Source: Spirogloea muscicola (lineage: Eukaryota; Streptophyta; Zygnematophyceae; Spirogloeales; Spirogloeaceae). Taken from it: a stretch of DNA of 22,448 nt. The translations under genes and the position numbers were made by a program. Of this stretch, positions 3,001 through 22,448 are shown one piece after another. Within the stretch, counting starts at the first letter, position 1. Each line of letters starts with the position of its first letter. The notes below the pieces were generated by a model. The model worked only from the letters and a program-made list of their open reading frames with translations. It ran no database searches and was not told where the DNA came from. Where the stretch lies: positions 1,610,935-1,633,382 of the forward strand of contig WELB01000003.1 of NCBI GenBank assembly GCA_009602725.1, given 5' to 3'.

Positions 3001-4483
3001 GATGACAAGTGAGCTCTCACGGGCACCCTTGCTCCATGGGATCAGCAGTCCAGGGCTCTATTGAGAGCATGTATCAAAGGGCAAGCTTCCATGCAGTTAT
3101 CTTCCTTTTTCATCTGATCATGTCTAACCAGCTGCAAAACTGCTAAGCTGATCTACTTTCACACTTGCAGTCCGAAGGCAAGGGAAGCCCTGCGGTACTT
3201 CTTGTACGGCCCAAACAATCAGCTCGATGTGAAGAGGGTAGAGAGCCTTGCGGCAGGCTTCCAGACGTTTCGACAGCTGATGACACCAGTCGCTCCTTCT
3301 CCAGCCTCACCCACACTTTCCAAGAATATAGACAGGGCTTATAGGCCTGCAAAGGCCCTCCCTCCGTCAAGGAAGAGCTTGGATCCCACTGCACAACAGG
3401 CACTCCTCCTGGTGTTTGCTCCTGAGGGCAGCTATCTGCAGGAGCTGCTGCTTACTGAGGTTGGTAACATATCCATGTCATCAACCAGCAGATCCTGATG
3501 CTGCACGTCGAGTAAGGGCAGTAACACTTGTTTCACCGAGCTTATATAAGTTCTTGTGGTCTGTGCTTTTGTGCGTCAGCTTGTGCGTGCAGTTGATGCA
3601 CTGTCAAGGGAGGCCATGGCGGAGCTTTGGAGCTACTTTGCTTCTAGAAGCATCATTCCGCTGTCCACTCTGCCCGGATCCTGGCCCGTTCCGCTCCCAG
3701 GAATGATGTTTGGAATGGCCCGTGGAACATGGCCAGTGGCCAGGCTCTCTGACGATGACCAGCGTGCTCTTGGCATTGTGAGGAGCATCTGGAACTTGTT
3801 GGAGCCTCACCTTAATCAGTCGGGCGGCACGCAGGGTGGTATGCAGCCTCATTACTCGTTACCATCTCTTATTTGCACAAGCACATGGGAAATTATCGTT
3901 GTGCATATATCCGTCCTTCACTTAGACATTGTGCCATGCAAGCCAGATATTGACGTGAACCCTCCCATACTGAACAACTCCTCTGTTCATGTTGGTTGCA
4001 GGCGTAGGCAGTATTGCAGGGGAGATGTTCCCACTGCTGAGAGACATCCTGCCAGGAGCTACAACATTTGCACAAAGATTTGCACTCATGCTGCTGCAGG
4101 TGCTGAAGCGTTGATCTTCCTGAAGTAGCTCACATTCTGCACATACCTTTGTTGCTCTTGAATGGATGGTAGTTGGCCTACTCATTCACCTATTACAAGC
4201 TTCTATACAAGCTTTCCAGATTTAAGGCCGTCATCATCAACATGGGAAGTCTCATACATGGACAATACTGTTGCTAATATGTTTTGTCTTGCTGTTGTGC
4301 CAGCGCCAAGCGCTCCGCTTTGCTGACGATCTCGATGGGAGGCGATCAGTGGCAGAGTGGGAGAAGGATCCAGCTGCCTCAGCGCGGCTTATCAAACCCT
4401 CTCCACTCCTCAGACGAGGGCGACCAGAAAGAAGGCCAGTTGGAAGTCAAAGATTGCTCCCAGCAAACTACCAGAAGCCATAG
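7..4483 (+). CDS. Chloroplast ABC1K (UbiB/ADCK-family) atypical protein kinase, 11 exons
   Basis: Spliced model: 7-801, 1042-1239, 1452-1661, 1825-1914, 2094-2297, 2404-2616, 2830-3008, 3171-3459, 3580-3838, 4002-4099, 4304-4483. All introns are GT-AG and the phases agree, giving 904 aa. Seen: an Arg/Ser/Ala-rich, acid-poor N terminus resembling a chloroplast transit peptide; KLGQ at 265-268; the ABC1 Ala-rich loop AAASLGQV across the exon 2/3 junction (325-332); VAVK with Lys347; an E-L-D-x-x-x-E stretch at the end of exon 3; catalytic HADPHPGN at 473-480; DFG at 493-495. Known: ABC1K proteins of plastoglobules and thylakoids regulate prenylquinone and carotenoid metabolism, and the Ala-rich loop replaces the usual Gly-rich loop. 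The long region after the kinase core (about 500-840) fits the plant ABC1K1/ABC1K3-like group (inferred). The last exon adds a basic Arg/Pro-rich tail. The ATG at 7 has a fair context, but an upstream start outside the window cannot be excluded. Exon 9 could instead end at 3835, also in phase. Confidence 0.93.
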
Positions 4484-5783: not shown

Positions 5784-5831
5784 GGGCCAGCGCCTGCATC
5801 ACCTCCTGGGCCAGCGCCTGCATCACCTCCT
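5784..5831 (+). repeat. 24-bp perfect tandem repeat, two copies
   Basis: The 24-bp unit starting GGGCCAGCGCCTGCATCACC occurs at 5784-5807 and again, unchanged, at 5808-5831. It lies 65 bp before the carboxypeptidase start codon, probably in its 5' UTR or core promoter. Confidence 0.9.
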
Positions 5832-5895
5832 CCGCCAACCAGGCGCCGCGGCGCCAGCCCCGGCGGGCGCGTCGCGGGGGCAGCCGGGGCTCGCG

Positions 5896-8800
5896 ATGGC
5901 GGAGGCCGTCGAGCCCCTCTTGGCCAGCCGAGCGGGAGACGAGGCTGCCCTTCCTTTGGTGGAGCGCGCCGACCGGGAGCAAGCGGCGGGACGGCTGTGC
6001 ACCGCCGCCACGGCCGCCGTCGCCGCCGTCTCGGTCCTTGTAGTGGTCTGCGGCGTCGCCGGCATGCTTGCAGGCATGCACCCGTGGAAGGTAGAGAGGC
6101 AGCACGCCTTCCACGCGCGCTTCTCAGGCTTCCTCTCGTGAGAACGACTCCTTCTTGTGTACTCTGTCACAGTTCTTGCTTGCATTGCATCGACGATTGA
6201 TGAAGATCTCCAGCGTTGGTCCGACCTCCATTGTAGTCCAGATATTGTGTAGTAGTAGTAGTAAAGCTGCACCCCTAGGCTAGTGAAGGAGCTCATTGTG
6301 TCGGCGGCTTATAAAGAACCCCAGCGCTGGTCAATCTCCAGCAAACATCAATCTTCTGTGTAGTAGTAGAGCTGCGCCTCCAGGCCAGTGAAGGAGCCCT
6401 AGTGCACACAGGGCTGCGGCTTGTCATAAAACAATCCTTATGCTCCTGTGCTTGTACGCAGCAACGATTCCTGTGCGCAAAATCTGAGGGAGTTGACGAA
6501 GGTGCCTCACCTGGCGGGCACAGAGTCAAACATGCTCGCTGCTGACTACGTTGTCAATCAGCTCGAGAAGTATGGTCTGACAACACATACTCGAGATTAC
6601 GACGTGCTGTTGAGCTACCCTGTGTCTCACGAGCTCACAGTAATATCCAGTGACGGGTCAGAGAATGAGCTGAAGCTCAAGGAAGGCACCGTGCCAGAGG
6701 ATCCATTCAGCTCAGCCGAAAACGTGGCGGAGACTTTCCATTCCTACTCACCCTCCGGCCACGTCAGAGGCGAGGTTGTCTATGCTAATTATGGCAGGAC
6801 AGAAGACTTTGAGACGCTCATTGAGCTCGATGTTGACGTCCAAGATGCCATTGTTGTTACTCGCTATGGCAAGATTTTCCGAGGTGACAAGGTATGCTTG
6901 GACTACTGCATAAGAACTGCTGGCAGAGAACATTCTATACAGGCGGGCTGATGTCTTGAACAATTGAGCGTGTTTATTAGTCTGCCACTTCTATCCGGCA
7001 ACACGGCAACTTATCTTCATTGCTCCATTGGTTGGACAACCAGGTCGCAAATGCTGCCAAGTATGGGGCAGCTGCTGTGCTTATCTATTCTGATCCAGAG
7101 AATTATAGTGCCAATGGTACAGAAGGCTACTACCCAGAGAGCAGGTACAATGAACCTTCGCTTGCTGCAGGATATTCAAGTGCGAAGAGTTTTTGAGCTC
7201 GGTCATCTTCACTGCAGCAGAACACTTGCACCTCTTTGCTGCTGTTTTTTCGTGGTCACTGTTAATGTCTGCTGGTCAGCGAAAGTTGACCTGTCTTGAT
7301 AAGTCCCGCTTGATTACCATCATATAGTTTCATGGTGTGCACTGCTCAGGTGGCTGCCTGCCAGTGGGGTGCAGAGAGGTTCTGTCTTTGAATTTAAAGG
7401 TGACCCAATGACACCTGGCTGGCCATCAACAGTGGGCTGTGAGCGACTTTCCACTACTGATCCCAACATACATTTGCCTTCCATTCCTTCACTTCCCATC
7501 TCCTTCGGAGATGCAAGACCAATCCTTGCCCAGCTCAGGGGAGAGTTGGCACCCCATGAGTGGAGAGGGGCTCTTGACTTACCTCACCATAGACTGGGGA
7601 AAGGGCCCGTTAAAGTGGACCTGCAATTAGAGGTCTGACAGTCTCCCTGGGTGATTATATGTGGACAAGATGTTCAGACTCTGCTCTCAACTTCAGACGT
7701 CGATTGCTCCTTGACGTTCGTGGCTGCCTTTGGCCTCCAATCCACACTTCTTACGTCCATGGAAGCAAATGGTTGGAAGCTACTTCTTACCTTTTGCCTT
7801 GTGACTTGTGCAGCTGAATCTCACAATAGCACCAATAAGGAATGTCTTTGCAGTCATAAAAGGAGCTGTAGAGCCTGACAGGTACAAAGCAGTGCAGTAA
7901 CCAGCACGCTGTGAAGCAATGCTGTGGCTTCTAGTTATCAATGTCAGTACAATGTTCTTCCTCCTTCTATGTGCTTTGTGGTCACAAACTATTTACTGGA
8001 CATTGTCAGATATGTCCTGCTGGGCAATCATCGAGATGCTTGGACATTTGGAGCTGTTGACCCAAACAGTGGGACCGCGGCACTCTTGGAGGTGCACAAC
8101 TCTCGTGCACCTTAGGCAGATAGCAATTTATTTTTCACCTATTTTCACTGTTTACGAACGACGGTGTCGGAATATGCAAGTTCTTGAGACCGACTGCCCT
8201 CAAAAGACAGTGCTCCTAATGCAAAGTGCTGGCTTCATTGCCACAGTGTTTGCTGATGACTAAATGCAACTCTTTTGATGACCAGATCGGGAAAGCCTTA
8301 GGAAAGCTTCTGGAGGTTGGATGGAAGCCGCGGAGGACCCTTGTACTGTGCAACTGGGATGCGGAAGAATACGCGCTGGCAAGTTACTAGAGTTGGCACT
8401 TGTGACTTTTGACTATGCTAATCCATTGTTCTTGATGTGAGTTGCACAGGGAGCTAACAGCTAGCTTCTGACAATTGACTTCACAGATTGATGACCTCGC
8501 GTCCCTGTACCTCATAACCTTGTCAAGGAGGTCAAGATCTTATGAGCCTCTTGCTTATATTGGCCACGTCTCTTTTGCTCTTATAGATTGGATCAACTGA
8601 ATGGGCAGAGGAGAACCTCAACCTTCTGCGTGAGAGGGCTGTCGCGTACCTGAATGTTGACTGCGGTGTGAAAGGACCTGGGGGCTTGCTGGCAGCAGCT
8701 ACACCCCAGCTAGATCACATCATCAAGCACGCCGCCTCCCTTGTAAGAATCCATTTCTATAAACAAAGCGTTAAAATTTTCTCGGCAAGCATTGTCGTTC

Positions 8801-12600: not shown

Positions 12601-13354
12601 TGCACTGTCATCATTTTAGGATGACTTGTCATTGTCATCACATACGAGTCCTATAGATGTGTAGTCACCAAAAATTGATTCAGACGCAGGTCATAGCCTA
12701 ATTTGGTCAGGCGCAATTGGAGCCTCAAGGCTCGCTGAAGGTGCAAAATGTTGAGAGGCACAGTCCTGCCACAGTCTGGCAAGTTCCGCCCCTGCTCATC
12801 AACTTTCTTAGACTGCTGCAAGAAGGCCAACAACAGCCCACCAAGCCACCATATGCCCACCAGACCATCTGCTCGGATCAAAGAAGCCTGCTCCTGCTGT
12901 GAAGAACAACTTCCGCCTGCAACAAGGGCCAGCAGTGCCACTTCCAGCTTTTGCGACTCCCATGAAGGCCAGGCTTCGACGTTGTCTCTCTAAGCGCCGT
13001 TCTACGCAAGAGAGGAGTCCGTGTCACCAGCTCCTTGCTTGATCTCCTTCGCTTTCGCCATGTCCGCCTTGGTCTTCGCGCTGGCCCCCTGGTTGGCTTG
13101 CTGAGGATTCTGTGCTTCTGCAGTGGCGGCAAGCGACCAGATGTCAGCAGAAGGGTCAGCAGGCGCCAGAAGGAGCAATCTTTGAGAAGGTGTCAAAATG
13201 TCCTCCTGCGTGGGCTAAGCGTCCTACTGCGTGGCCTGTACCAAAGCCATCTGCTGGCTCCTGGTTTAGAGACCGTCGTCAGCCACAGGTCGTCAAGTGT
13301 ACGAAAGAGGTGCAGCAAGCCTAACCCACTCTCAGCTCCGGGGGGGAGCACAGC
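12601..13354. other. Stretch without a confident gene
   Basis: Several minus-strand frames are open. One ends at 13002 with a Lys/Ala-rich, then acidic C-terminal-like stretch; one spans about 13160-13264 after a possible CTAAAC...CCAG acceptor and reads Gly/His-rich; one spans 12651-12941. They may be further exons or the 3' UTR of the minus gene starting at 13664, but I could not join them in a single consistent model. Confidence 0.4.
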
Positions 13355-13664
13355 TTAAAGAAAGCCCCCAATAGAGCCTCCAACAGTGGCGCCAGCGAGG
13401 CGACCGAGGGTATGAGCGCGACGAGCTGAGCAGCGGTAGCACGGGCACTACAGAAGCTCCCAGCACGACGGTGTGACGCGACGTCAGCCGCATTGGGGAG
13501 GAGAGTGATGGGGTTGGGGTTCTGGCACCTTGGCCCGTGGAGCCTTTGGTGTAGAGCCCGACGCGCTCGTTGAGCGTGAGGCCGCCGTGCGGCTGCTCCA
13601 CCGTCACGCCCTCCTTCTCCACGATCCGCTGGAACGCCTGCTCGACCTTGTTGGCGCCCGCCAT
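13355..13664 (-). CDS. Possible small two-exon gene, product unknown (68 aa)
   Basis: Minus-strand ATG at 13664-13662 sits in an excellent context (GCCGCCATGGCG). Exon 13664-13529 encodes a charged, probably helical start (M-A-G-A-N-K-V-E-Q-A-F) and an L-T-L-N-E-R-V-G-L-Y motif; a CAAG|GTGCCA donor joins in phase to an acceptor before 13425, giving exon 13425-13355 with a Gly-rich hydrophobic end (L-A-G-A-T-V-G-G-S-I-G-G-F-L) and TAA. The second exon is also open in another frame as a hydrophobic stretch (L-V-A-L-I-P-S-V-A-S-L), so a longer product using exons further down is possible. Divergent from the wax synthase, with a shared GC-rich upstream region. Not recognised. Confidence 0.35.
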
Positions 13665-13727
13665 GGCGGCTCTCGCCCGCCCGCGCCGCGGGCTGGCCCG
13701 AGCCTGGCAGCCGCTGGGCGCCCGCGA

Positions 13728-13768
13728 GGCGGCGGCGGCGGCGGCGGCGGCGGAGGCGGCGGCGGCGG
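13728..13768 (+). repeat. GGC/CGG trinucleotide repeat
   Basis: Interrupted (GGC)n: GAGGC, a run of CGG units, one GGA interruption, then further GGC units. It lies between the divergent small gene and the wax synthase and is repeated unchanged at 17113-17153. Confidence 0.9.
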
Positions 13769-13957
13769 GGCTCTGCGAGCTCGATGAAGTGCCAGGGGGG
13801 CAGTGTGACACGTGTCGGCGCCTGCGGGGGAGGTTAAGGCGGTGACGGCGGCAGGGACCGCGGTGACGGCGACCGAAGGGCGCCCGGTGACGGCTGACGA
13901 GCCCTCCGCTGCGCCCCGACTGACGCTGCCTGACGGTCGGCGGAAGCGGCAGGGAGG

Positions 13958-14410
13958 ATGAGCCGACCAAAGTGCCCTTTCAGTCCTCGATCGTTCCTTC
14001 CCCTGCAGCGCCGACGCTGCCCCCGCCCCGCGACCATCAGCTGGTCGGGCAACCCGACGCCCGTTGCGACCGCTGCCGCCGTCCCACAGAGATTAAGCGC
14101 CACGAGCTCGGTTCGGCGGCCCCGCGCTCTGCGCTTCCGCAGTGCCCGCCTGCGCCGCCTCGCTGCGCTCGTCGCGGCGGTCCCGCGCCCGCACTGCAAC
14201 CATTGCACGGCCGCTCGCTGCTCGGCACTTGGCGTCCAAGCGAGCAGAGGAGGGGAGGGCCTGCTGGCCTCAACTCAACGATTTGCGTCGCATCCTGGCT
14301 TAAGCCCTTCCCAGCGGCGGCAGCCCTCGCCTGCTGAGCTCTTGTGGATGTTTGGCGGTGGCTTGCGCATGCTCTATGCCAGGCAGGCCATGGCGGCCAT
14401 TGTCGCCTGA
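13958..14410 (+). other. Upstream in-frame ORF of the wax synthase
   Basis: ATG at 13958, 150 codons, TGA at 14408-14410, then 12 bp to the wax synthase ATG in the same frame. The start is Arg/Ser/Pro/Ala-rich with almost no acidic residues, as in organelle transit peptides, but GC-rich leader DNA also gives this composition. Wax synthase homology begins right after the downstream ATG, so I treat this as leader or uORF, not part of the enzyme. Repeated at 17343-17795. Confidence 0.4.
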
Positions 14411-14422
14411 GGGGCTGCCGTC

Positions 14423-15814
14423 ATGCAGCACCTGAAGCTGCCGCTCGGCCTGAGCTACGGCACCGGTTGGCTGGTGGCCATCGCGGCCGTGGCAGCAGCT
14501 TCGTCATACGTGCACGCAGTCGTCCTGCGGCGGCCCGTCGGCCTACGCCGTCTGGCGGCCGCGGCGCCGGTGCTGGCCGCCTACGCCCTGTTGCCATGGG
14601 TCTTCGACCCCATGGGCGGCCGCATGCTCGGCACCGCCATTCTCTTCTGCGTCGTCACTTGGGTTGCCTCCTTCCGCCTGCTGGCAGCCTGCTGGGGCCG
14701 CGGCCCACTCGTCGACCCCGCCATTGCCCGCAGCGCTCTGCGCACCGCTGCTGCGTTGAGCCTGCCACTTAATATCATCCCCAAGCGACGGCGCAACAGC
14801 AGCACGAGTGCAATGCAGCCGAAGAGCTGGGTCCTCCTCGCGGGGTGCTGCGCAGCGAAGACAGCGGCCATGGTGCCAATAGTGCTCGTTGCGCACCGCT
14901 GGCACAACCACATATCACCTCCCATCCTGGACGCCATCTTCTCTGTCAACCTCTACCTCTTCGCCACCGCCGTCTGCGAGGGCCTTGCCGCACCCGCCGT
15001 GGCCCTGCTAGGTGCACACGCCCAGCCACTAACGCTCGCTCGCCCAGCGATGTCGAGACGACGTGCTGGCCCTGTCAGAGCCTGGCAGGCTGACATTCCT
15101 GCTCTTGGCTGTGGTCGGACAGGCATTGTGGTGGCATCGCCATTTGAGCACCCGTACCTTGCAACATCTCTCGAGGACTTCTGGGCTCGACGCTGGAACC
15201 TGGTCGTCAGCGGTGTGCTGCGTGATACTGTCTACCAGCCTCTCCTCGATCTACTTTGCTGCCATGGCAGCCAGCAACCAAGCCAGCAAGTGACCACCAT
15301 TGACGGTGAGGGCAGGGCGCCCGATACATCTGCAGACGGTGTCAAGAAGGAGCCTCTCACTGGCGACGCGGTGTGCTCAAACGGGCAGCTCGATAATGGC
15401 CATGCCCACAACCAGGATTCTTCTGGCCTCCGTCGACGAGTGCAAGGACAAGACCTGAAAACGCATAGCGCACTGTCCACCCCCCTGCCGCTCTGGGCAC
15501 GGCTGGTGGCTATGCAGGCGGCGTTCGTCGTGTCCGGCGTGATGCACGAGCTTGCCGTATTCTACCTCACCTTCTCCATGACTGGCGACATGCTGGCCTT
15601 CTTCACGCTGCACGGCGTGGCCACAGTTGCCGAGCTCGCGCTGCGCAAGCTGGTGCAGCTGCACGGCCGCCCATTTCCACGGACACTGGGTAGAGTGCTC
15701 ACGCTCAGCTTTGCCTTTGTCACCGGGCACCTCCTCTTCTTCCGGGCCCTGCGCCGCTCGGGGGCCCACTTGAGGGCCTTGGGCGAGCTCCGAGCCATTT
15801 TCATGCCGCTCTAG
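14423..15814 (+). CDS. Wax synthase-like MBOAT acyltransferase (long-chain-alcohol O-fatty-acyltransferase), left copy
   Basis: 463 aa as one open frame. Seen: several hydrophobic segments (about 14-36, 43-62, 68-90, 135-158, 168-196, 361-383, 390-405, 425-441), the family motif A-T-S-L-E-D-F-W-A-R-R-W-N-L at 247-260, and SGVMHE at 371-376 with the presumed catalytic His375. Known: plant wax synthases are ER membrane enzymes joining fatty acyl-CoA and fatty alcohol into wax esters; relatives of this fold use other acceptors, so the substrate here is inferred. Two oddities: a low-complexity Arg/Pro/Ala insert at about 198-234 that may be an in-frame intron (15012-15122, GT...AG, 111 bp), which would make a 426-aa enzyme, and a hydrophilic linker at about 281-352 between the two motifs. 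Converges on VIM; the stops are 381 bp apart. Identical to 17808-19199. Confidence 0.88.
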   Translation: MQHLKLPLGLSYGTGWLVAIAAVAAASSYVHAVVLRRPVGLRRLAAAAPVLAAYALLPWVFDPMGGRMLGTAILFCVVTWVASFRLLAACWGRGPLVDPAIARSALRTAAALSLPLNIIPKRRRNSSTSAMQPKSWVLLAGCCAAKTAAMVPIVLVAHRWHNHISPPILDAIFSVNLYLFATAVCEGLAAPAVALLGAHAQPLTLARPAMSRRRAGPVRAWQADIPALGCGRTGIVVASPFEHPYLATSLEDFWARRWNLVVSGVLRDTVYQPLLDLLCCHGSQQPSQQVTTIDGEGRAPDTSADGVKKEPLTGDAVCSNGQLDNGHAHNQDSSGLRRRVQGQDLKTHSALSTPLPLWARLVAMQAAFVVSGVMHELAVFYLTFSMTGDMLAFFTLHGVATVAELALRKLVQLHGRPFPRTLGRVLTLSFAFVTGHLLFFRALRRSGAHLRALGELRAIFMPL

Positions 15815-16195
15815 ACCACCCAAAAAATCGTGACGCTGCTTGGAGTGTGGAGGCGAAGTCCATGGTCGTCTTGCTACGGCCGACCTGCAATTGCAGACGG
15901 ATTGCCACCAAAGTGGCCTCGGCTGGCACATTCAGTCTTCCCGGGCGGTCACAAGCCCCTCAATGCCACAGCTCAACGCCTGTGGAGGAACTTCTCTCCT
16001 GCCGCACTCCTGCTTCCGCATCTTAGCCAGCAGCGCCGCGAGCTCGAGCATGTCGCCGGCCTGGTCCTCCTGCCGCCCCAGACGCAAGGAAGGGTTTGAG
16101 CGACAGTTAGCAGGCTCGTGCTTGCTGCACCTGACAAGCGAGTGGATGCAACTGGCTGCGGATCTCCAGGCAATGCAGACCATGGCAATGATTCT
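15815..16195. other. Convergent intergenic region between wax synthase and VIM
   Basis: 381 bp between the two stop codons must hold both 3' UTRs. I found no TGTAA on either strand, so transcript ends may overlap or use another signal. The same sequence lies at 19200-19580. Confidence 0.6.
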
Positions 16196-17086
16196 TCATG
16201 GTTTGGCAAGCGGACGTGTCAGAAGGAAGACAACTGCATGCTGCAGAGTGCTTGCGGCCAGGGCTGGCTGCCGGCAGCCGAAGGCCAGGATGTGCACCAG
16301 GAGGGCTTCCAGAAGCTCCTGACTGTACTCAGGGTACTTGGCACAGATTGCGCCAAAAGCTGTCGCCACCAGGACCTGCCGCTGCGGCCTTGGCTGCGGC
16401 AGACTGCCGGCGGGAGGCAAGTGGAGCTCGCCGTGGGCCACAGGTGAACTGGGTACAGCCTGCTGGGGTGGCCGGACGAAAGGGGCTGCATCTTCGTCCT
16501 TCCCAGAGCCCTCGCTGTCCTCGACAATCTCGTCATTGCCATGCTCGTTCTGCGGCAGCGGCGTTGCAGAGTCAGGGGCTGGTCCAGCTCCGCACTCGGC
16601 GCCAACCTGGAGCCGCTTGCTCCGCTTGGCGCGGGGGTGCGCTGGCGAGCCCTGGCTGCTGCCGTCACCATCGACACTCCTCCCAGCAGTGTGGCTGTTG
16701 CTCGCCGCTACTGGTTCGGCTGCACCGCTGGCCAAGAGTTCTGCTCCGTTGGCAGGCTCGCTGTTATCGTTCTCGTTGGCAAGCTCCTCCTGGCGCCGCT
16801 TCTCCTTGAGCATCTCAATCACGTCCACCATCTCCCTGTTCACCTGCAGCTTCAGCATGCAGCTACTCTTAATTAGCAGTGCCAAAACTTCGCATCTGCA
16901 TGTTCGTTTAGGAAAGCTTTACCTTAACATTGAGAGATGCAGAGAAGGTTGGGGGGGAGGGAAGAGCCTTGGCTGAGGTGAGAGGGAGTAAGGAGGACAA
17001 CCTGCGGGTTGCTGACGCACTCTGCAATGTCAGCTCTGCACGACTTCACAGGGCACGGCCGCACGACCCGCTGCATGCGCAAAGCG
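16196..17086 (-). pseudogene. Truncated 3' fragment of the VIM/ORTHRUS gene (left repeat copy)
   Basis: Contains the complete last exon (16843-16196) and only 85 bp (17086-17002) of the RING2 exon, which breaks off at the N. The zinc-binding first half of RING2 and everything upstream are missing on this side; beyond the N lies unrelated leader DNA. Identical to 19581-20471. Probably an assembly artefact, not a true pseudogene: joining 17086 to 20472 restores the exon. Confidence 0.9.
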
Positions 17087-17087
17087 N
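17087..17087. other. Single ambiguous base (N) at the repeat junction
   Basis: The only N in the window, lying exactly between the two 3384-bp copies. A one-base gap at such a place marks a scaffold join. Confidence 0.95.
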
Positions 17088-17342
17088 CCTGGCAGCCGCT
17101 GGGCGCCCGCGAGGCGGCGGCGGCGGCGGCGGCGGCGGAGGCGGCGGCGGCGGGGCTCTGCGAGCTCGATGAAGTGCCAGGGGGGCAGTGTGACACGTGT
17201 CGGCGCCTGCGGGGGAGGTTAAGGCGGTGACGGCGGCAGGGACCGCGGTGACGGCGACCGAAGGGCGCCCGGTGACGGCTGACGAGCCCTCCGCTGCGCC
17301 CCGACTGACGCTGCCTGACGGTCGGCGGAAGCGGCAGGGAGG

Positions 17343-17795
17343 ATGAGCCGACCAAAGTGCCCTTTCAGTCCTCGATCGTTCCTTCCCCTGCAGCGCCGAC
17401 GCTGCCCCCGCCCCGCGACCATCAGCTGGTCGGGCAACCCGACGCCCGTTGCGACCGCTGCCGCCGTCCCACAGAGATTAAGCGCCACGAGCTCGGTTCG
17501 GCGGCCCCGCGCTCTGCGCTTCCGCAGTGCCCGCCTGCGCCGCCTCGCTGCGCTCGTCGCGGCGGTCCCGCGCCCGCACTGCAACCATTGCACGGCCGCT
17601 CGCTGCTCGGCACTTGGCGTCCAAGCGAGCAGAGGAGGGGAGGGCCTGCTGGCCTCAACTCAACGATTTGCGTCGCATCCTGGCTTAAGCCCTTCCCAGC
17701 GGCGGCAGCCCTCGCCTGCTGAGCTCTTGTGGATGTTTGGCGGTGGCTTGCGCATGCTCTATGCCAGGCAGGCCATGGCGGCCATTGTCGCCTGA
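17343..17795 (+). other. Upstream in-frame ORF of the wax synthase, right copy
   Basis: Same as 13958-14410: 150 codons ending in TGA 12 bp before the wax synthase ATG, in the same frame. Confidence 0.4.
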
Positions 17796-17807
17796 GGGGC
17801 TGCCGTC

Positions 17808-19199
17808 ATGCAGCACCTGAAGCTGCCGCTCGGCCTGAGCTACGGCACCGGTTGGCTGGTGGCCATCGCGGCCGTGGCAGCAGCTTCGTCATACGTGCAC
17901 GCAGTCGTCCTGCGGCGGCCCGTCGGCCTACGCCGTCTGGCGGCCGCGGCGCCGGTGCTGGCCGCCTACGCCCTGTTGCCATGGGTCTTCGACCCCATGG
18001 GCGGCCGCATGCTCGGCACCGCCATTCTCTTCTGCGTCGTCACTTGGGTTGCCTCCTTCCGCCTGCTGGCAGCCTGCTGGGGCCGCGGCCCACTCGTCGA
18101 CCCCGCCATTGCCCGCAGCGCTCTGCGCACCGCTGCTGCGTTGAGCCTGCCACTTAATATCATCCCCAAGCGACGGCGCAACAGCAGCACGAGTGCAATG
18201 CAGCCGAAGAGCTGGGTCCTCCTCGCGGGGTGCTGCGCAGCGAAGACAGCGGCCATGGTGCCAATAGTGCTCGTTGCGCACCGCTGGCACAACCACATAT
18301 CACCTCCCATCCTGGACGCCATCTTCTCTGTCAACCTCTACCTCTTCGCCACCGCCGTCTGCGAGGGCCTTGCCGCACCCGCCGTGGCCCTGCTAGGTGC
18401 ACACGCCCAGCCACTAACGCTCGCTCGCCCAGCGATGTCGAGACGACGTGCTGGCCCTGTCAGAGCCTGGCAGGCTGACATTCCTGCTCTTGGCTGTGGT
18501 CGGACAGGCATTGTGGTGGCATCGCCATTTGAGCACCCGTACCTTGCAACATCTCTCGAGGACTTCTGGGCTCGACGCTGGAACCTGGTCGTCAGCGGTG
18601 TGCTGCGTGATACTGTCTACCAGCCTCTCCTCGATCTACTTTGCTGCCATGGCAGCCAGCAACCAAGCCAGCAAGTGACCACCATTGACGGTGAGGGCAG
18701 GGCGCCCGATACATCTGCAGACGGTGTCAAGAAGGAGCCTCTCACTGGCGACGCGGTGTGCTCAAACGGGCAGCTCGATAATGGCCATGCCCACAACCAG
18801 GATTCTTCTGGCCTCCGTCGACGAGTGCAAGGACAAGACCTGAAAACGCATAGCGCACTGTCCACCCCCCTGCCGCTCTGGGCACGGCTGGTGGCTATGC
18901 AGGCGGCGTTCGTCGTGTCCGGCGTGATGCACGAGCTTGCCGTATTCTACCTCACCTTCTCCATGACTGGCGACATGCTGGCCTTCTTCACGCTGCACGG
19001 CGTGGCCACAGTTGCCGAGCTCGCGCTGCGCAAGCTGGTGCAGCTGCACGGCCGCCCATTTCCACGGACACTGGGTAGAGTGCTCACGCTCAGCTTTGCC
19101 TTTGTCACCGGGCACCTCCTCTTCTTCCGGGCCCTGCGCCGCTCGGGGGCCCACTTGAGGGCCTTGGGCGAGCTCCGAGCCATTTTCATGCCGCTCTAG
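17808..19199 (+). CDS. Wax synthase-like MBOAT acyltransferase, right copy (duplicate of 14423-15814)
   Basis: 463 aa, identical in every residue to the left copy, including the D-F-W-x-R-R-W-N motif, SGVMHE with His375, the possible in-frame intron (here 18397-18507) and the hydrophilic linker. Because it lies inside the perfect repeat next to the N, it is probably the same gene present twice in the assembly and should not be counted as a paralogue without read support. Faces the intact VIM gene, 381 bp stop to stop, which is the natural arrangement after merging. Confidence 0.85.
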   Translation: MQHLKLPLGLSYGTGWLVAIAAVAAASSYVHAVVLRRPVGLRRLAAAAPVLAAYALLPWVFDPMGGRMLGTAILFCVVTWVASFRLLAACWGRGPLVDPAIARSALRTAAALSLPLNIIPKRRRNSSTSAMQPKSWVLLAGCCAAKTAAMVPIVLVAHRWHNHISPPILDAIFSVNLYLFATAVCEGLAAPAVALLGAHAQPLTLARPAMSRRRAGPVRAWQADIPALGCGRTGIVVASPFEHPYLATSLEDFWARRWNLVVSGVLRDTVYQPLLDLLCCHGSQQPSQQVTTIDGEGRAPDTSADGVKKEPLTGDAVCSNGQLDNGHAHNQDSSGLRRRVQGQDLKTHSALSTPLPLWARLVAMQAAFVVSGVMHELAVFYLTFSMTGDMLAFFTLHGVATVAELALRKLVQLHGRPFPRTLGRVLTLSFAFVTGHLLFFRALRRSGAHLRALGELRAIFMPL

Positions 19200-19580
19200 A
19201 CCACCCAAAAAATCGTGACGCTGCTTGGAGTGTGGAGGCGAAGTCCATGGTCGTCTTGCTACGGCCGACCTGCAATTGCAGACGGATTGCCACCAAAGTG
19301 GCCTCGGCTGGCACATTCAGTCTTCCCGGGCGGTCACAAGCCCCTCAATGCCACAGCTCAACGCCTGTGGAGGAACTTCTCTCCTGCCGCACTCCTGCTT
19401 CCGCATCTTAGCCAGCAGCGCCGCGAGCTCGAGCATGTCGCCGGCCTGGTCCTCCTGCCGCCCCAGACGCAAGGAAGGGTTTGAGCGACAGTTAGCAGGC
19501 TCGTGCTTGCTGCACCTGACAAGCGAGTGGATGCAACTGGCTGCGGATCTCCAGGCAATGCAGACCATGGCAATGATTCT

Positions 19581-22448
19581 TCATGGTTTGGCAAGCGGAC
19601 GTGTCAGAAGGAAGACAACTGCATGCTGCAGAGTGCTTGCGGCCAGGGCTGGCTGCCGGCAGCCGAAGGCCAGGATGTGCACCAGGAGGGCTTCCAGAAG
19701 CTCCTGACTGTACTCAGGGTACTTGGCACAGATTGCGCCAAAAGCTGTCGCCACCAGGACCTGCCGCTGCGGCCTTGGCTGCGGCAGACTGCCGGCGGGA
19801 GGCAAGTGGAGCTCGCCGTGGGCCACAGGTGAACTGGGTACAGCCTGCTGGGGTGGCCGGACGAAAGGGGCTGCATCTTCGTCCTTCCCAGAGCCCTCGC
19901 TGTCCTCGACAATCTCGTCATTGCCATGCTCGTTCTGCGGCAGCGGCGTTGCAGAGTCAGGGGCTGGTCCAGCTCCGCACTCGGCGCCAACCTGGAGCCG
20001 CTTGCTCCGCTTGGCGCGGGGGTGCGCTGGCGAGCCCTGGCTGCTGCCGTCACCATCGACACTCCTCCCAGCAGTGTGGCTGTTGCTCGCCGCTACTGGT
20101 TCGGCTGCACCGCTGGCCAAGAGTTCTGCTCCGTTGGCAGGCTCGCTGTTATCGTTCTCGTTGGCAAGCTCCTCCTGGCGCCGCTTCTCCTTGAGCATCT
20201 CAATCACGTCCACCATCTCCCTGTTCACCTGCAGCTTCAGCATGCAGCTACTCTTAATTAGCAGTGCCAAAACTTCGCATCTGCATGTTCGTTTAGGAAA
20301 GCTTTACCTTAACATTGAGAGATGCAGAGAAGGTTGGGGGGGAGGGAAGAGCCTTGGCTGAGGTGAGAGGGAGTAAGGAGGACAACCTGCGGGTTGCTGA
20401 CGCACTCTGCAATGTCAGCTCTGCACGACTTCACAGGGCACGGCCGCACGACCCGCTGCATGCGCAAAGCGCGGCCAGCGGCCGCAGTGCGATCCCGAGT
20501 GGCCTCCTCGCCGGCAAAGCGGCCCAAGAGGCATCCGCGGCAGAAGGTGTGGCCGCAAGGGGCAGACACGGGGCCATCCAGCACTTGACCGCACAGGGCG
20601 CAGGAAAATTCTGTGACGCACGGGCAGACTTCGTGCCCTCAGGTAAGTGTGCATACGCCAATGTGGCTGGGCTGCCCAAGGTCCACAGCTGCACTCGACC
20701 TCAGCATCGCCACCACTTGCCCAGAAGCCATCCCCAAGTGAAATGTCGATGCAGAGTGTGTCGTGGGGGCAAAGTGCAGTGACAGACCTCGGAGCAGGCG
20801 CTCCTGGATGCTGCGTCGCTGCCGCCGCACGCCGGGGCTGCCATCGCGTGCAGCCTGCGGCAGATCTGGCACCGGCCGAGACCAGCCCCACCGATCCTCC
20901 TCATGCTGCAGCTGGGAACCAGGTGGCCACGTCAGGACCAGCCGACATGCTCCACCCTCGACGGGGACGCCAGTGACCTCGACGGCAGCCAGTTGTGACA
21001 ACGGCGAGCTCCATTGGCACCTTCCAGTCCCACGCGGCTCGGCCGCTGCGCTCGCACACGTCTCGAGCTCCGCCAGAGCGCCGCAGCTCCGTAACATCCG
21101 GCAGCGCCCGTGGCCGGTCGCCCTGCTCGCCTCTGCCGCCCCCAAGACAGTTGGTCAGCTCCTGGGCCAGCGGCAAGAGCTGCAATGTGACGTCTGCTGC
21201 TAACCAATGTACGCTTGTCGCCTGCGAGAGCCCTGCTTTCATTACGCTGCGGAGCTAAGGAGGTGACGGAAAGCTCACGCCTCCCACGGCGCGGGGCTGT
21301 TGTCGCAGCGCACGAATAGGTACCGGCATACCAGGAAGCCCTGTCACATAGTACAGGCGCCGCGGCTGTGCACCTTCAGCAACGCCAACAGTAAGTGCAA
21401 TGCAAGGCTTGCCGAGCAAGTTGGTCTGCGGCGAGGTGAAGCCTGTCATGCCGGCAGCAGCGAAGCGGAGCGAGGCTCACGCCGGCCCCGGGCTTGCGCC
21501 AGCACTTCTCGATGCGGTAGATGCCGTCGTAGCGCACGCCCTCCTCCGGCGCATAGCTCGACCGCTTCTCCTTGTGCGACCTGAATCCGCATATAGAGAT
21601 GTAAGATTAGTATTAGGATGAAGGCACACCTACAGTCGTTGCAGCAGCCCTGCAGGTCTCGAAGGTGCGGGGCCGCACCGGACGACTCGGACGGGGTAGC
21701 CATTGCGGCAGCTGACGCGAAGCGCCTCATTGCACAGCGTGAATGCTTGGTCCGACGAGTGCTCCTTGTTCGTGCGCTTGTTGCCGCTCAAGTCCCGGCC
21801 GCCGCTCCCCGTGTAGAGGAACCACTCGCCGTGGTCCTCGTCGTCCTCGTACCCGCCGGAGAGCGCCACGGACTGGGCGCCTGTGGCGGCGCGCCCGGCG
21901 ATGCCCGCGACGTGCGGCAGGTGCGCACCCCACTGCCGGCACTCGAGCCGGTCCTCCCAGGCCGTGCCGACCGCCACGCCGGCGCCGCCCACGGGGTTGT
22001 GCTCTGGCCCGATGGGCCCAAAGTGGCCAGGCGGAGCCGTGACGAAGATGCGGCCGCTGCACGCGTTGGCTTTGCCGGCGCGTACGGCGCGCGCAGTCGT
22101 GAAGGCCCGGTCCGGCCGCGCCGCATTCGCCATCGCATGCGCGCCACCGGCGGCCGCCGCTGATGATGGGCTGCAAAGCGGCCACCCTGCCACAACGTCA
22201 GCTTTCGACGCTGCTGGTATCATAGTCGTTGCCGACACTGCCCCTGTCGTAAGGAGCGCCGGGCCTGCTCACCTGGACCCCGCCGCGGCCGCCACCTTGG
22301 CCCAGCGGATGGCCGTGACGAGGGCGGCGTTAATGCGGGGCTGCGACGCCATGCGCGGAGGGATGGCGGCGCGGCACTTGCCGCAGCTCCGCTTCCCCTG
22401 CGCCACCCACTTCTGGAAGCACCGCAGGCAGAAGTTGTGCCCGCACGG
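19581..22448 (-). CDS. VIM: ORTHRUS/VIM (UHRF-type) E3 ubiquitin ligase and methyl-CpG reader, 5' part missing
   Basis: Exons in coding order: 22448-22273, 22170-21679, 21580-21481, 21340-21279, 21132-21021, 20911-20788, 20610-20387, 20228-19581; phases agree and 645 residues are visible. Seen: second half of RING1 (CGHNFC...C, then C-x2-C, followed by a family-typical M-A-S-Q-P-R-I-N); an SRA/YDG domain (about 98-275) with G-G-Y-E-D-D at 164-169, Y178 and the base-displacing NKR finger at 189-191; G-D-R-P-R-A-L-P after it; RING2 with C359/C362, C374-x-H376-x2-C379-x2-C382 and C413/C418; then V-N-R-E-M. Known: VIM proteins bind hemimethylated CG through SRA, ubiquitinate through the RINGs, and are needed for MET1-type CG methylation. 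The PHD finger expected upstream lies outside the window. The 215-residue tail after RING2 is longer than usual. The exon at 20911 could start at 20905. Confidence 0.93.

Follow-up and report, generated by a model that had tools for sequence, protein, structure and literature searches.

A 3384-bp exact tandem duplication around a single N in Spirogloea muscicola is probably an unmerged contig overlap

A window of 22,448 bases, the whole stretch of DNA analyzed here, contains the same 3384-bp sequence twice in tandem, at positions 13703 to 17086 (copy 1) and 17088 to 20471 (copy 2), with a single N in between. This duplication is very probably an assembly artefact, in which two contigs overlapping by 3384 bp were set one after the other and left unmerged. 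A previous reading, made from the letters alone (here called the sequence-only reading), had proposed a probable unmerged contig overlap, and we retain that wording on the basis of the exact identity of the copies, the N at their junction, single-n joins documented for a scaffolder, and the presumed start of the right-hand contig at a peak of G+C content. On this reading the second set of genes is probably spurious, because overlapping pieces were most likely written one after the other unmerged. Without the surplus, the real locus would probably lose 3385 bases and carry a single MBOAT_2-like gene and a single SRA/RING gene.

Identity of the copies and the N at their junction

The sequence-only reading held that 13703-17086 and 17088-20471 are identical at a constant offset of 3385, and it suggested a self-alignment as a check. 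We ran this comparison directly and found 0 mismatches in 3384 bases, so that the coordinates hold to the base. The repeat listing gave just the first 300 bases of the duplication, and its full length comes from the base-by-base comparison at this offset. The maximal exact match spans 13703 to 17086 and can be extended on neither side: at the same offset, 82/300 positions match in the 300-base flank left of copy 1 and 101/300 in the 300 bases from 17087 (N included), both near the per-base match of 0.26 expected by chance. In random sequence of the same composition, a run of 3384 bases would have a probability of ~10^-1993.

The duplication includes a triplet repeat, as had been stated previously. 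This GGC tract of 13.7 units begins 25 bases into copy 1 (13728-13768) and recurs unchanged in copy 2 (17113-17153). The other reported repeats are a 24-base tandem array and a 13-base tandem array; like the GGC tract, they are short and local. When words occurring just twice at offset 3385 were dropped, 13 repeated 16-base words were left, and these sit in the 24-base array and the GGC tract.

The sole N of the window is at position 17087, exactly between the copies, where the sequence-only reading had placed it. It presumably marks a scaffold join, with copy 1 as the right end of the left-hand contig and copy 2 as the left end of the right-hand contig; we infer that the contigs end at the N and that the true copy number is one. 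An N at the only position where two such contigs, joined without trimming, would abut argues for an artefact; the chance of a lone N landing on the junction base is about 1 in 22,448, a value computed after the fact. The joins between left flank and copy 1 and between copy 2 and right flank are seamless, and the N stands solely between copy 1 and copy 2. One base is common to the left flank and the repeat end, and one to the repeat start and the right flank, which speaks neither for nor against end joining.

In the mechanism that we propose, one contig ending at 17086 and another beginning at 17088 would both hold the same 3384-bp genomic segment. Linking data would set the two contigs side by side, and the scaffolder would compute a negative gap (an overlap), skip the alignment and merging of the ends, and write one N. 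The real chromosome would then read left flank, a single copy of the segment, and right flank.

Genes and base composition at the boundaries

Copy 1 contains a whole MBOAT_2-like reading frame on the plus strand (14423-15814; 463 amino acids from the first ATG, plus the stop, with the start codon and a lack of introns assumed). The frame from 14411 to 15811 matches Pfam MBOAT_2 with an E value of 2.3e-10. An identical frame occurs in copy 2 (17808-19199, plus strand).

At the right boundary, an open frame on the minus strand (20309-20638; best RING family E value, 2.1e-9) crosses the end of copy 2 at 20471 unbroken. Because this frame is open across 20471/20472, the right boundary of copy 2 looks native. 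Nine Cys/His residues of the frame lie right of 20471, in the flank, and three Cys lie inside the repeat; by our own reading of the sequence, six of the nine in the flank fit the beginning of a C3HC4 pattern. Copy 1 retains just the tail of this frame (17002-17086, minus strand), recognized by CVSNPQ at 17002-17019 and by the identity of the copies, and it is cut off at the N. The left copy does indeed break off within an exon, as had been claimed, if the RING frame is, as it appears to be, an exon of an SRA-domain gene. The SRA-domain open frame itself lies outside the duplication (21630-22268, minus strand; Pfam SAD_SRA, E value of 4e-33), and its best solved-chain match is UHRF1 (E value of 8.6e-31). 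The order of SRA and then RING on the minus strand is one that we take to fit the UHRF1/VIM family, and the gene is consistent with a UHRF1/VIM-like assignment, in which VIM is a tentative name. Speaking against the domain order as proof of this assignment, there is no UHRF protein among the 37 solved-structure matches of the RING frame; the best is TRIM72 (E value of 4.4e-9).

At the left boundary, a reading frame starting MAGANKVEQAF occupies 13332 to 13664 on the minus strand, with its ATG at 13664, and its upstream DNA runs on into copy 1. No Pfam match was found for 13332-13979 (minus strand) at an E value of 0.01. Just 38 bases of the upstream DNA lie outside the repeat; the remaining G+C-rich upstream region, GGC tract included, is inside copy 1, and copy 2 carries this upstream DNA but lacks the gene itself. 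Copy 2 thus starts in DNA that corresponds to the region before the ATG at 13664, in agreement with the description of the right copy as starting in a GC-rich leader. Gene anatomy alone is indecisive between the readings considered below, because a real tandem duplication would leave identical remnants. Separately, the frame at 13332-13664, which begins MAGANKVEQAFQRIVEKEGVTVEQ, and the MBOAT_2-like gene may have a G+C-rich divergent promoter region in common.

Contigs commonly end at G+C-rich places. Over 100 bases at 13703, which is equivalent to the start of copy 2, the G+C content is 0.90, a value exceeded in 14 of 18,964 windows of this size; the maximum, 0.92, is reached in the 100-base windows starting at 13672 and 13674. 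Around 13703, G+C is higher in 143/18,864 windows of 200 bases and in 143/18,764 windows of 300 bases. This peak plausibly made the right-hand contig end near 13703, a point that is also 25 bases from the GGC tract. Counting against an artefact, the other presumed contig end, at 17086, is just moderately G+C rich (0.72 over 100 bases, with 1,616/18,964 windows higher). We also asked whether a DNA hairpin of unusual stability at the left boundary had caused the break; 150 of 200 shuffled sequences folded equally well or better (z of 0.74), and a special hairpin is not indicated, since folding there is ordinary for its composition.

Precedents and alternative explanations

"Duplicated overlapping contigs" are described as a recognized class of assembly error by Kelley and Salzberg (2010; PMC2864568), in whose four assemblies 5,698/5,947, 13,159/13,571, 1,094/1,366, and 8/22 such cases were judged mis-assembled by mate pairs. 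Given the span from 13,159/13,571 to 8/22, the rate of mis-assembly varies. Our locus resembles the cases described there in that neighboring contig ends repeat the same sequence and both copies are kept in the scaffold; those cases, however, were judged by mate pairs and mainly involve haplotype differences, whereas here the copies are identical and are judged from the sequence. Two marks of this class are found in the window: the last bases of one contig match the first bases of its neighbor at 3384/3384 positions, where the contig ends are those deduced from the N, and an assembly gap, the single N at 17087, separates the copies. According to PMC9516828, false duplications typically have a gap between the copies, which is partly a matter of definition, because a gap was also one of the filters described in that paper.

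Individual scaffolding programs offer further parallels. According to its description in PMC4524009, the LINKS scaffolder writes a single n between contigs calculated to overlap, much like the one N between overlapping contigs here, but LINKS writes a lower-case n, while the window has a capital N in an all-capital record and may come from other software. The absence of the lower-case n counts against an artefact of this kind, although storage of the record may have removed such differences. With a capital N and no lower-case letter anywhere in the window, letter case is uninformative on the software. SSPACE and ABySS likewise write a single n, which plays no part in our argument. In Bionano hybrid scaffolding, as recounted in the BiSCoT paper (PMC7649008), the shared region, often of several kilobases, is also written twice, but around a fixed gap of 13 Ns and not one N. 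It is stated in PMC5368935 that SOAPdenovo2 often puts gaps between overlapping contigs, which bears only indirectly on this case. Counting against an unmerged overlap, the Meraculous paper (PMC3158087) reports closure of 938 of 985 estimated negative gaps. An exact overlap of 3.4 kb is also long, and an assembler would be expected to merge one normally.

A lone N could, alternatively, mark a real junction. On this account, which we consider improbable, the window holds a real and very recent tandem duplication of 3384-3385 bp, and the N marks a junction left open by the assembler or gap closer. As noted above, the outer boundaries are both seamless, and one of them is 25 bases from the GGC tract, a type of tract at which breaks can occur. 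Zero differences in 3384 bases correspond to a 95% upper bound on divergence of 0.088%, which leaves room for a young event. Because identity bounds divergence at this value, a very young real duplication would look alike; 0/3384 yields an upper bound alone and makes dating by divergence indecisive, and the count of copy-private differences, also 0/3384, is what a very young event would show as well. The position of the N is harder to accommodate. Either the only N of the window fell by chance on one diagnostic base (the value of about 1 in 22,448 given above) or the assembly resolved the joins of left flank to copy 1 and of copy 2 to right flank yet not that of copy 1 to copy 2. For a duplication longer than the reads, all three joins would be branch points of the assembly graph, yet the middle one alone failed. 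The GGC tract, too, is unchanged between the copies, and where a real duplication would have a determined sequence leading out of copy 1 and into copy 2, the junction here is an N. Were the duplication real, the MBOAT_2-like gene would be doubled and a 5'-truncated SRA/RING tail would stand beside a second copy of the G+C-rich promoter region, so that a change in copy number would have been captured just as it arose next to a GGC tract.

Contigs from two haplotypes, or from two nearly identical sources, of one locus placed in series would be a particular form of this artefact, and such splitting is given as the usual cause of such duplications in PMC2864568 and PMC7649008, but we regard this as the least likely explanation, since the copies are identical at all 3384 bases, noncoding DNA and triplet tract included, and no heterozygosity is visible.

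Consequences and other contents of the window

The duplication is most likely an ordinary assembly artefact with an already known mechanism and of low biological interest. If it is left in place, annotation would count two MBOAT_2-like genes and an SRA/RING fragment although each gene probably exists once, and mapped reads would be expected to show a false half-depth over 6.8 kb. The locus is a warning against copy-number claims, and further one-N joins of the same assembly merit identical scrutiny.

We also searched for comparable loci. In a prokaryote collection, 45 stretches matched the pattern for the SRA frame and 5 of them, at five loci (L001-L005), encoded a relative; all are in Pseudomonas records, share 26-29% identity with the SRA frame of the window, and are useless for synteny. 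In viral contigs, the MBOAT frame had no match and an exact 29-base pattern spanning the left boundary had 0 matches. The two collections together yielded no one-copy comparable locus of a relative, which says little because neither consists of eukaryote genomes.

The gene content of the window appears eukaryotic, with genes divided among several frames. No RNA family matched the window at gathering scores. Of four frames compared with NCBIfam, the MBOAT frame and one ABC1 piece matched only below the curated cutoffs (best scores of 23.9 of 375 bits and 42.8 of 487.55 bits, respectively), and the other two had no match. Outside the duplication, the plus strand carries pieces of an ABC1 atypical kinase (1018-1257, 1317-1685, and 2010-2303) and two glutamate carboxypeptidase II/III-like pieces, one at 6430-6951 (best match, glutamate carboxypeptidase III; E value of 2.1e-25) and one at 7915-8115 (best match, an N-acetylated-alpha-linked acidic dipeptidase-like protein; E value of 6.5e-9). 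A 24-base unit is repeated 2.0 to 2.2 times at 5784-5837, upstream of the first recognized glutamate carboxypeptidase-like piece.
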